NCBI GenBank assembly: GCA_900128395.1
Contig: LT649380.1
Location: forward strand, 1 to 30,670
Source of the DNA: Stramenopiles sp. TOSAG23-2
Lineage: Eukaryota > Sar
Length of the DNA: 30,670 bases
Direction: 5' to 3'
The notes beneath the pieces are model-generated. The model saw nothing but the letters and a program-made list of their open reading frames with translations. It ran no database searches and was not told where the DNA came from. Of the stretch, positions 10,367-19,367 are shown in pieces; positions within the stretch are counted from its first letter, which is position 1; every line of letters starts with the position of its first letter. The position numbers were made by a program, and so were the translations under genes.

Positions 10367-11236
10367 ATGGTTACCACTACAACTACCATTAAAACCATGT
10401 CGAAAACATGGTTAATGATATGTTGCATCATTACCATGTCAACCATAATAAATACGGAAGCACAATTATCAAGTAATATTATTCAATTAAATTCTAAAAA
10501 TTGGAAAGATTTAGAAAAATCCCCTCATACTTGGTTCGTCAATTTTTGTCGCCAAGGATGAGGTTATTGTCAAATGTTAAATCCAGAGTGGGAAAAACTC
10601 GCTGCAAAAACGAAAAATGTTGTAAAAGTTGCATATTGGGATACTACTTCATCAGGTCCAACTCCTCGTATTGTTGGTCAAATTCAAGGAACACCCACAA
10701 TTAAAATATTTACACCGGTAATGAAGAAGAATAAAAAAAATCGTAAAAAGGTAGTGTTGGACTATCAATATGAAAGAAAAGCAAAGCCATTGATTAATTT
10801 TGCTTATAGTAAGATGAATTCTTTTGTTGAAATCATAACATCGCCACAGAAATTTGATAAGTACATTGAAAAAAGTGAAAAGTTTGGCTTACCCCAAGCA
10901 TTATTATTTACCAAAGGTACATCAACAAAACCATTGTTAAAATATATGTCTGCTGAATTTCGACGTAGATTATTAATTGGTGAAGTTAGGATGACGAAAA
11001 CAAATAAAGAAATACTTGCGAAATATAATGTTGATGCTAGTGCTGGTACAACTTTATTACTTGTAAAAAATGGTGAAGGGGAAGAAAATATAATTTATAA
11101 TAAAGGAAAATTTACATTTAATAAAGTAAGAAATTTCTTACAAAAACATGCATTAAAAGAAGCAGTCACAGGTCCTGTGAAAAAAGTGAAAAAAGAAACA
11201 ACTGAAGAAAATACGGAAACAAAAAAAGAATTGTAA
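10367..11236 (+). CDS. ER-resident PDI/thioredoxin-like selenoprotein (U-G-Y-C active site; UGA read as Sec)
   Basis: Predicted dithiol/selenol-disulfide oxidoreductase of the ER lumen, 289 residues when the TGA at 10559-10561 is read as selenocysteine (Sec65). The N-terminus has a signal peptide (WLMICCIITMSTII, then EAQ). The thioredoxin fold shows the WFVNF strand, then CRQG-U-G-Y-C-Q, where protein disulfide isomerases have APWCGHC: Sec65 replaces the first active-site Cys and Cys68 is the second. LNPEWEKLA follows the active site as in PDIs, and GTPTIKIF supplies the cis-proline (Pro110). A second domain (about 150-265) looks like a redox-inactive thioredoxin fold. The protein ends KKEL, an ER-retrieval-type tail. 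A SECIS-like hairpin lies about 300 nt past the TAA. The ATG at 10397 is an equally plausible start (Sec55). Without recoding, one gets a 64-residue peptide and a headless ORF. Confidence 0.87.
10559..10561 (+). other. In-frame UGA recoded as selenocysteine
   Basis: The TGA sits exactly where the first cysteine of a thioredoxin CxxC should be (G-U-G-Y-C-Q). Thioredoxin-fold homology continues in the same frame without a break on both sides: WFVNF before, and the LNPEWEKLA helix plus the cis-Pro strand after. TGA is a normal stop elsewhere in the window. Confidence 0.87.
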
Positions 11237-11541
11237 AAAAAAAAGAAAATGAAAGAAAGTATTTATTATACATATATGTATATATATAAAGTATATATAG
11301 TATACATTTGCATATGCAGGTCTATAAAATTGTATGTGGCGTTTAATAACATGATATATATATATATAGGAAAAGATATATTTAGAATATGTATATGGAT
11401 TTAACATTTGACAATAATATAATTAATATAATTAAAAACATATGATAAATAATGAAAAATCATCTTTTTCAATCAATAAACGCATGCAACACACATACAG
11501 AAAATCAGTATATGGATTTGCATATATATTGTGCATACTTT

Positions 11542-15594: not shown

Positions 15595-17364
15595 ATGTCA
15601 AATCAACAAACAAACGCATTTATTACTGGCGCCATTGCAGCATTTGGAACAACAGCTGTTGCATTTTATATCCTCAATAAATATAATAATAATAATAATA
15701 ATAATAAATCAAAACCAACACGTCCACCACCACCTATACGTAAAAATATCACTGGATGTGTTGGCAATACGCCAATGGTGAAACTCAATCCATCTCATCT
15801 TGGTATCACAGATTGCCTTGCAAATATTTATGCAAAACTAGAATTTCAAAATCCTGGTGGATCAGTTAAAGATAGGATTGCTGTTTCCATGATTGATGAA
15901 GCAGAACGTTCTGGTCTTATCACACCAGGAAAGACGACGTTAGTAGAAGCAACTTCTGGTAATACGGGTATTGCAATTGCAATGGTAGGAGCAGCACGTG
16001 GATATAAAGTAGTAGTAGCGATGCCTCGTCTACAAGCAATGTTGGAGAGGTATATACTCATTCGAAGTTTTGGTGGTCAAGTCTTGCTGTCTGAACCGGA
16101 AACGAAATCACAAGGATTTTTAGACTTGGCGGAATCATATGCAAAAAAACATCCAAATTGTTACTTGATGCGACAATTTACCAATGATGCTAATCCAGAT
16201 GCTCATTATAAAGCTACAGGTCCAGAAATATGGGAACAAATGGAACAGCGTGTCGATGCCGTTGTCATGGGTGCTGGAACTGGTGGTACGGCAGTTGGTG
16301 TTGGTCGATATATGAAAGAACAAAATTCAAATATTAAAATATGCGTTGTAGAACCAACAGAATCACGTGTCATGCAAGGCTCTGTCCATCGAGTACATTC
16401 AATTGTTGGTATTGGCACAGGTTTACATGTTCCTATGCTTGAAGGTTTGGACCCAGGTGCAGATTTCATACCAGGAAAAGGGCGTGGTATTGTTGATGAA
16501 TTTTTATCGACAGATACACCGGATTCTTTGGATTGTTCATTATTATTGGCAACATCACATGGTCTTTTAGTAGGTCCATCCACAGGTGCTGCTGTACATG
16601 CTGCTCTAGAGCTGGGACGTCGTGAAGATATGCGTGGTAAAAATATTGTTGTTATTGCGCCATCGTCTGGTGTTAGGTATTTACAACATCCAATGTTCAA
16701 ATCGTTAAGAAGGGAAGCATTTAGTGCTCTATCCGTATCTGTAGAATCTTCAGCTGTAATCACAAAAACCGTTGGATCTCCAGAGACATCTTCTTTCAAT
16801 TCACTGAATAAAACTGATGTAGTCAATCGTGTTGAAGGTTGCATTCTTGCATTGGTACGACAATTAATGGATTTACCTAATATTGGTTTAAATGATAATT
16901 TAATTGATCATGGAGCAACAAGTATGACAGCAATGCTGCTTTTAGGAAAATTACGTAGTTCACTTGAAGGTATGTTAGAAGGCAAAGAGCTGCATGGTTT
17001 GAAACTTGCAATTGTAAAAGAACGTTTGTGGGGCACGACACGAGATCTTGCTCGTGGTGTAGTAGGTGTTGATGAAGATTGTAATCTTCTCCCATTTTCT
17101 TCATTTTTGGAGGCAAATATTTTAATTGAATATTGTGGTGGATGAGATCCAGCGTTCGAGGCACATTTTAAAATGTTACGTTCACTGCTTGAACAGCAGT
17201 TTCCACGTATCGTTATAAAAGGTGTTGCGGACGCTGAAAACACTGGAAATTTCATTGTACAAGATCAAAAAGATATGGAACTTTTGTCACCATATGGATT
17301 TCTTTCAACCACTGAACGCCAAAGTAAACTTTTGAAAAGAATTTATGAAAAGTATGAAAAGTAA
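15595..17364 (+). CDS. Selenoprotein fusion: cysteine synthase-like PLP enzyme + carrier domain + SelW-like Rdx domain
   Basis: Reading the TGA at 17143-17145 as Sec gives 589 residues. Residues about 8-27 form a single membrane anchor, followed by Asn and Pro runs. Residues 50-370 are a cysteine synthase/cystathionine beta-synthase fold: GNTPMVKL, PLP lysine Lys92 in GGSVKDR, SGNTG (121-125), GAGTGGT (227-233), GLLVGPSTGAA, and PSSGVRYL near the pyridine nitrogen. Residues 405-460 look like a phosphopantetheine carrier: the DHGATSM motif puts Ser443 at the attachment site. Residues 508-589 match the Rdx (SelW/SelT/SelH) fold: ILIEYCGGU (Cys514-x-x-Sec517), the helix FEAHFKMLRSLLEQQFP, the IVIKGVAD strand, NTGNFIV, then PYGF...SKLLKRI. 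The Sec is exactly at the Rdx CxxU position and the frame continues to TAA. Likely role: sulfur or selenium transfer by a tethered thiol. That is inference. Confidence 0.88.
17143..17145 (+). other. In-frame UGA recoded as selenocysteine (CxxU of the Rdx domain)
   Basis: The codon follows TGT-GGT-GGA, giving Cys-Gly-Gly-Sec, the SelW-family redox motif. About 72 codons of Rdx-type sequence follow in the same frame before a TAA. Terminating here would leave a beta strand and a lone CGG end with no partner residue. Confidence 0.88.
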
Positions 17365-17767
17365 TTATTATATATATATTTATGCATATATGTATACATA
17401 ATGATAAAATATGTAAAAAAAAAAGAAAAAGATCACAAACAAATAAAAAAAGATGGGAATTGTATTTTAAATTTTCAATATTATAATGATAGTCTCAATT
17501 ACAAAAATAGTAATGCATTTTATCAAAAGATAATAATGTGTGATTGGTGACTTGAGAAGCAATTTTGTATTTCAGAGATTTTGTATCTCTAGTAAAAATT
17601 TTGATTTTATATATATACACGCAATCCATCACGTCTATTTAATAGAATTATAATGTGTTATTATAAAGACACAAAACAAATTTTGGTACTGTAGAGTGTA
17701 AAAAAGAGTGTTTATATATATATATGTGGTTTTATATCGTGTTTTTTTTTCTTCGAGTATTAATTTT

Positions 17768-18317: not shown

Positions 18318-19367
18318 TCATTTTTTTTCACTTGGGCGTTTCCAAGACAAATTGACTGGAGTGGATGTTTTGAAAGTGTCTACGAGCGGACAGTGTGCAT
18401 CAACAGCTTCTTTCAATTTCTCTAGCTCTTCTTGTGAAGCGGAAGATTCGATTGTGATAGTACCGGTCATACTTTTTAACCCAACTGCATCGTCTGCTAA
18501 TCCAACAAGTCCGCCAAGATCAATAGGTGCTTCTACTTTGCAAGATATAGACTGAATATCAACTCCCATGACTTGTCCATAATACTTGTAAGTAATTTCT
18601 TGGCACGTACCAAAACTTGCACAAAAAAGATCCAATGGATTTGTACCTTTATTTGTTCCCCCTGGCATTGTTGTCGGCTCATCAACAACAATGGTGTGTC
18701 CACCAGTAAGAGTGGCAGTGGTAAGAAGGCCATCGCCATTCAAAACGGAGGAACTGCTGTATTTGCTTTGCAATGCTATATCGTCCTCTTTTGCTGCACC
18801 AATAAGTGCCATGACACCTTCCACCAAATTTTTCTGTGGGATCTCAGTGGAACCTGTTGGTTCAGCTTTGACAACTTTTGTTGTAAGATCAAGTGGGTTA
18901 ACAAGTGTAGCAACAAGTGGGCAATGGGCATCGACGGCACCTTTAAGCGCATCAAGCTGCTCATCTGATGCATCTGGGGCGTCAATGGTAATGTCGACAT
19001 TGATCCCGCTGAAACCGACTTTTTCACCTACGCCAACAAAACCTGAAAGATTGATATCAGCATCAACAGAAGCTGAAACGGATTTCAAATCAATATCCAT
19101 GACGGTAGCATATAACTTGTATGTGATTTCTTGGCAAGTACCTAATGAAGCGCACATAACATCCAATGGATTTGGTCCAGCGTTTGAACCTCCTGGGAAT
19201 GCTTCTGGTTCATCAATTGTGAAATCAAAACCACCTGGCAATGTAACTTTTGTTGATACACCATCTCCAGCTAATTTACTTTCAGAGCTGTATGTAAATG
19301 TAAGACAAGATTCATCTTCTTGGCGGGCACCAATAAGTCCCATAATATCTTCTTTTTTCGTAGTCAT
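18318..19367 (-). CDS. Tandem double-domain OsmC/Ohr-like protein
   Basis: OsmC/Ohr proteins use a pair of cysteines to reduce organic peroxides or handle reactive sulfur. This 349-residue protein contains two homologous copies of the fold in one chain, residues about 8-168 and 186-345. Each carries the same marks: PGG(S/T)N.G.NPLD, then a Cys-rich helix (MCASLGTCQEITYK, Cys72/Cys78; FCASFGTCQEITYK, Cys249/Cys255), and DAHCPLV (Cys149; Cys326). So both halves keep the peroxidatic and resolving cysteines, and the paired copy probably replaces the usual OsmC homodimer. The halves are clearly diverged, so the duplication is old. No targeting peptide is obvious. The ATG at 19367 is the first in frame. 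The stop is TGA with an open frame beyond it. Confidence 0.85.
   Translation of the reverse strand: MTTKKEDIMGLIGARQEDESCLTFTYSSESKLAGDGVSTKVTLPGGFDFTIDEPEAFPGGSNAGPNPLDVMCASLGTCQEITYKLYATVMDIDLKSVSASVDADINLSGFVGVGEKVGFSGINVDITIDAPDASDEQLDALKGAVDAHCPLVATLVNPLDLTTKVVKAEPTGSTEIPQKNLVEGVMALIGAAKEDDIALQSKYSSSSVLNGDGLLTTATLTGGHTIVVDEPTTMPGGTNKGTNPLDLFCASFGTCQEITYKYYGQVMGVDIQSISCKVEAPIDLGGLVGLADDAVGLKSMTGTITIESSASQEELEKLKEAVDAHCPLVDTFKTSTPVNLSWKRPSEKK

Follow-up and report, generated by a model that had tools for sequence, protein, structure and literature searches.

The window analysed here, a stretch of 30,670 nucleotides that forms the entire contig C147 of its assembly (17.45 Mb, 793 contigs), very probably encodes a genuine eukaryotic selenoprotein in which a PLP enzyme, a carrier-like domain and a SelW-like domain are fused and an in-frame UGA is recoded (Table 1). 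We put the probability of this reading at about 0.88, a value that covers the identity of the protein and the recoding and does not extend to the reaction scheme considered below. Recoding is the preferred reading because all eight homologues of the front part end at IEYCGG, the tail behind the TGA is conserved, a SECIS-like hairpin follows the gene, and the genome contains both selenocysteine machinery and other genes with in-frame TGA codons.

Re-reading of the sequence bore out the initial annotation in that a single frame, with the TGA as its sole break, runs from ATG 15595 through 516 codons to TGA 17143–17145 and through another 72 codons to TAA 17362–17364. Lys92, the SGNTG (residues 121–125) and GTGGT (residues 228–232) motifs, DHGATSM with Ser443 and Cys514-Gly-Gly-Sec517 likewise all lie where they had been placed. 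The proposed combination of a PLP enzyme, a carrier-like domain, a SelW-like domain and a hydrophobic N-terminus in one recoded selenoprotein is supported by profiles and homologues, and the domains follow each other in the order hydrophobic N-terminus, cysteine-synthase-like PLP domain, carrier-like domain and SelW-like CxxU domain.

Table 1. Features of the predicted selenoprotein gene and its 3' region, in window coordinates
Feature	Position	Strand	Details
Whole predicted selenoprotein gene	15595..17364	+	589 residues, ATG to TAA, Sec as codon 517
N-terminal hydrophobic segment, probable membrane anchor	15619..15675	+	residues 9–27, from hydropathy
Cysteine-synthase-like fold-type-II PLP domain	15751..16662	+	residues 53–356, PALP profile, Lys92, SGNTG, GTGGT
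Carrier (PP-binding) profile match	16843..16965	+	residues 417–457; Ser443 codon 16921–16923
Rdx/SelW-like domain	17119..17361	+	residues 509–589, Cys514-Gly-Gly-Sec517
In-frame TGA, putatively read as selenocysteine 517	17143..17145	+	frame, homologues, tail conservation
Candidate SECIS core	17486..17556	+	ATGAT, 13-bp helix with one bulged U, AAAA at loop entry, TGAG

PLP enzyme and SelW-like domain

The PALP profile matched residues 53–356 with an E-value of 3.9e-66 (223.8 bits, cut-off 35), and Lys92 is kept in all eight rows of an alignment of the window protein with seven homologues. By sequence, the closest solved structures are cysteine synthases, and the domain shares fold type II, the catalytic lysine and the SGNTG and GTGGT loops with cysteine synthase/O-acetylserine sulfhydrylase (CysK). 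It differs from CysK in scoring below the cut-off of the cysK equivalog (309.9 versus 350.95 bits), in carrying about ten more residues ahead of the VDEF segment than the solved enzymes do, and in being fused and probably membrane-anchored. The cystathionine beta-synthase model scored lower on the window enzyme (250.3 bits) than the cysK model. In separate genes, the genome encodes its own cystathionine beta-synthase, which at 630.4 bits exceeds the cut-off of 510.25, as well as a CysK-like protein that at 349.7 bits narrowly misses the cut-off of 350.95; a third match was found in two pieces. The window enzyme therefore looks, from sequence comparison, like a specialised paralogue; it is 38% identical to the genome's cystathionine beta-synthase and 36% to the CysK-like protein, and all three have the active-site motifs in common.

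Ahead of the enzyme, the best 19-residue mean hydropathy is 1.83 in the window protein and between 1.38 and 1.94 in the homologues P0002–P0009, and a similar hydrophobic stretch occurs within the first 55 residues in all eight of them. Residues 9–27 are probably a membrane anchor, which we infer with caution because in P0004, P0005 and P0007 a stretch of the enzyme or the linker equals or exceeds the hydropathy score of the N-terminus.

At the other end of the protein, the Rdx profile matched residues 509–558 with an E-value of 0.014 when the whole protein was scanned, under the curated cut-off, and with an E-value of 0.003 when residues 401–589 were scanned (18.2 bits, cut-off 22.6). On the latter stretch, the NCBIfam model CXXU_selWTH (SelT/SelW/SelH) reached an E-value of 1.7e-5 (25.0 bits, cut-off 34.2). 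Because these scores lie under the curated cut-offs, we call the domain SelW-like. Sequence comparison indicates that IEYCGG and the tail behind the TGA together form one SelW-like domain, with the CxxU motif at its start. As in the SelW/Rdx family (SELENOW, Rdx12/C17orf37), CxxU follows an IEY segment, the FP and TGxF motifs are present and the length is similar. The initial annotation had placed the motif in the exact SelW position, which overstates the match a little, since two extra residues stand directly after Sec in comparison with human SELENOW and with Rdx12/C17orf37 (E 0.1). SelW and Rdx proteins usually stand alone, whereas the window domain sits behind two other domains. For the thioredoxin-like fold expected of this family, the tail modelled alone gave a low confidence of 60.8. 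A second Rdx match in the genome (L006, G000:C574:10793-11065) has CCNCH in place of CxxU and belongs to a frame of about 800–1000 residues with long low-complexity stretches.

Carrier-like domain and possible coupling of the active sites

Between these two domains, the PP-binding profile scored 18.7 bits (E 0.002) on the whole protein, under its cut-off of 20.8, and exceeded the cut-off on residues 401–589 (21.1 bits) and on residues 401–516 alone (22.4 bits, E 1.5e-4). The profile matched all eight aligned sequences, the window protein and seven homologues, and NLIDxGATS with Ser443 is kept in each of the eight rows. The window protein thereby resembles carrier proteins in the motif and its conserved serine, but differs from them in that the profile scan matched no adenylation or condensation domain on the chain and in the phosphopantetheinyl transferase, for which no match was detected in the genome. 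Predicted models of the carrier-like domain and the tail were of low confidence (10-residue means of 27–66).

The gene would encode a protein, probably anchored in the membrane, that carries the PLP domain, the carrier-like domain and the SelW-like CxxU domain. PLP bound to Lys92 could convert an activated serine to aminoacrylate, to which a sulfur nucleophile would then add. The adjacent CxxU centre on the same chain might give reducing power or relay sulfur via a selenenylsulfide, and Ser443 could be a swinging arm that carries an amino acid or a thiol between the two sites, provided that it is pantetheinylated and that loading takes place in trans. This working scheme as a whole is tentative, and so are the initial annotation's proposal that a carrier thiol moves Cys, Sec or persulfide from one centre to the other and any chemistry with selenide. 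The best mechanism that we can offer is a PLP enzyme that catalyses beta-replacement and has its selenothiol partner built in, with the carrier arm as a possible link; we regard it as doubtful. If such a coupling exists, SelW, whose biochemical role is to our knowledge not settled, would gain a partner reaction that is open to assay. A more elaborate form, in which a self-contained, membrane-bound machine for sulfur or selenium transfer lets the PLP site, the pantetheine arm and the CxxU selenol act one after another on a serine derivative attached to the carrier, is improbable; in a family of microbial eukaryotes, it would yield a thiol or a selenol by a route without known counterpart.

A simpler arrangement, to which we give a little under an even chance, contests this mechanism and leaves the identity of the protein and the recoding as they are. 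The selenoprotein would be real, its middle domain would be a non-pantetheinylated spacer, and the CxxU centre, tethered to the enzyme, would act generally as a thiol reductase or an antioxidant. An exon-by-exon search of the organism's own genome found no PF01648 transferase (none in one genome, whereas 10 of 14 control genomes gave a match), which speaks for a spacer, as do the absence of a matched adenylation domain from the protein and a PP-binding score that falls just under or just over the cut-off depending on the stretch scanned. However, the retention of Ser443 and its motif throughout the alignment is hard to square with a mere spacer, and in a search made exon by exon, introns or an incomplete assembly may be the cause of the missing transferase match.

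Like the window gene, several known fusions from algae or marine microbes involve a selenoprotein or a selenium enzyme. An algal survey describes 42 selenoprotein families, of which about half (20) have a thioredoxin-like domain, and reports SELENOM-pVHL, SELENOM-ShKT and GST-MSRA fusions (PMC7539508); Prx and UGSC fusions and Ndh-SelD are also known (PMC7539508, PMC2398784, PMC9402790). In contrast to the window protein, none of the fusions described in the accessible text of these sources joins a PLP enzyme or a carrier domain to SelW. The terms 'cysteine synthase', 'PALP', 'pyridoxal' and 'carrier' do not occur in the accessible text of PMC7539508, and the accessible portions of PMC2398784, PMC9402790, PMC7435645 and PMC2922099 contain no such fusion protein. 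The enzyme-carrier-SelW architecture was not found in the openly accessible literature examined. Here a single chain would combine a selenol with a carrier-like domain and with a PLP enzyme of the kind found in sulfur metabolism, an arrangement kept in about seven distinct sequences.

Evidence for recoding of the TGA

The initial annotation had suggested searching with the two halves of the protein separately, and homologues of both the front part and the tail do exist, as separate protein entries. In the protein database, P0001 is the window's own protein ending at the TGA, with one residue different. The eight non-self homologues P0002–P0009, which include two pairs of near-twins (P0002/P0003 and P0004/P0005) and so amount to about six distinct sequences, end without exception directly before the TGA position; the seven that were aligned, all but P0003, are 62–71% identical to the window protein. 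A search with the tail (residues 506–589) gave matches in five of five candidates. One of them, P0010, is near-identical to the window and has Trp written at the TGA position. The other four, P0011–P0014, begin at an internal Met, with identities of 84, 73, 71 and 67% to the tail of the window protein. The homologues of the two halves are known from proteins alone, as separate database entries. Since gene calls of the front part stop at IEYCGG and the tail fragments are conserved, the part behind the TGA is a conserved protein sequence. Conserved coding sequence thus follows an in-frame UGA in this gene, as is characteristic of eukaryotic selenoproteins, and recoding of the TGA is well supported by these comparisons. 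As the database entries of all eight relatives break off at the Sec position, the family is hidden there as truncated PLP proteins. The open frame itself contributes less: if intergenic stop codons occur at 0.067 per codon, the chance of 72 open codons is 0.0066, and the homologue evidence for recoding is far stronger than this estimate. The position-specific GC content of the tail is coding-like (GC1 0.52, GC3 0.26). P0010 starts with MSQLLQLSSFLEAN where the window has CNLLPFSSFLEAN, a difference that may stem from strain, copy or assembly.

An ordinary stop at 17143, which would leave a 516-residue enzyme-carrier protein as the functional product and the tail as separate or decaying, is very unlikely. 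The database proteins P0001–P0009 do end there, and P0011–P0014 start at an internal Met as if they were separate proteins, but standard gene calls break at TGA, and neither the single SelW-like domain formed across the codon nor the conservation of the tail and the SECIS-like hairpin behind it fits this explanation.

The candidate SECIS hairpin begins 122 nt past the TAA and would direct the ribosome to read UGA 17143–17145 as selenocysteine. Its duplex energy is -12.9 kcal/mol under a final descriptor (ATGA[TC], at least 9 pairs, AAA at loop entry, [TC]GA) that was fixed after viewing all six genes, namely the window gene and a further five redox genes that contain in-frame TGA codons. All five of the latter have a downstream descriptor match, four of them at -11 or better (GPx -21.3, MsrA -14.2, L021 -13.3, L024 -11.5, L023 -6.3); the L023 hairpin is no better than chance matches. 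Among 3000 shuffles of the 953-nt 3' region, 124 contained any match and none reached -12.9, and 20 sampled 10-kb genome stretches (400,000 bases, both strands) contained 14 matches, none at -11 or better and the best at -10.7. The window and the loci together (218,188 bases, both strands) had 11 descriptor matches. A match in L018 is stronger than that of the window (-13.7), but its position on the strand opposite a long open frame suggests a chance match. The first, looser scan (TGA, helix, A-rich loop entry, GA) yielded a match of -12.4 inside the gene at 16924, and one of 2000 shuffles went beyond -12.9. The Rfam SECIS family had no match in the window, nor in the GPx and MsrA loci. The minimum-energy fold of positions 17480–17562 favours another register, in which UCUCAA pairs with UUGAGA, and the folding energy of this segment has a z-score of -1.58; 18 of 200 shuffled sequences fold equally well. 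A SECIS element in the 3'-UTR is thus predicted by the descriptor and its controls, whereas the folding energy argues for it less strongly.

Selenium machinery and other TGA-containing genes of the host

The machinery for selenocysteine is represented in the genome by tRNA-Sec, in two copies over the Rfam cut-off, by SelD and by SepSecS, which was found in three exon-like pieces as in an intron-bearing gene; a search for PSTK gave an ambiguous result. In-frame TGA codons were also found in a GPx gene (one TGA, with a further TGA appearing to end the gene), in one of four MsrA matches and in three of six AhpC/TSA matches, one of them with a UxxU motif. Together with a ubiquitin-activating-enzyme gene on the window's contig, the machinery and these genes lead us to take the host as a selenoprotein-using eukaryote. 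A reading of TGA as tryptophan, or as some other ordinary amino acid, is extremely improbable for this organism. Its one supporting observation, the Trp in P0010, most simply reflects the code chosen by the gene caller. Against it, TGA terminates the OsmC open reading frame at 18318 and apparently GPx, the genome has tRNA-Sec and further genes in which TGA stands at a Sec position, and CxxU is the SelW motif.

The two tRNA-Sec copies (L007 and L008, G000:C227:11214-11299 and 11393-11478) are arranged in tandem, 179 bases apart, and have equal scores. On the same contig, L024 (G000:C227:8925-9152) is an AhpC/TSA-type UxxC frame with a SECIS-like hairpin. L021 (G000:C4), an AhpC/TSA-type frame of 424 residues, contains GVWUPPC and has a strong SECIS-like hairpin, and L023 (G000:C135) is a frame of the same type with two in-frame TGA codons, the UxxU motif GAWUPYUR and a weak hairpin behind it. 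SelD (L010, G000:C587), whose site is of the Cys type (CGGC), forms the rear part of a fusion with a pyridine nucleotide-disulfide oxidoreductase domain. Within the window, an OsmC-domain protein with two matched stretches lies on the minus strand (18318–19367), convergent with the selenoprotein gene, and a thioredoxin-domain frame at 10574–11236 starts inside the domain, which probably involves an upstream exon.
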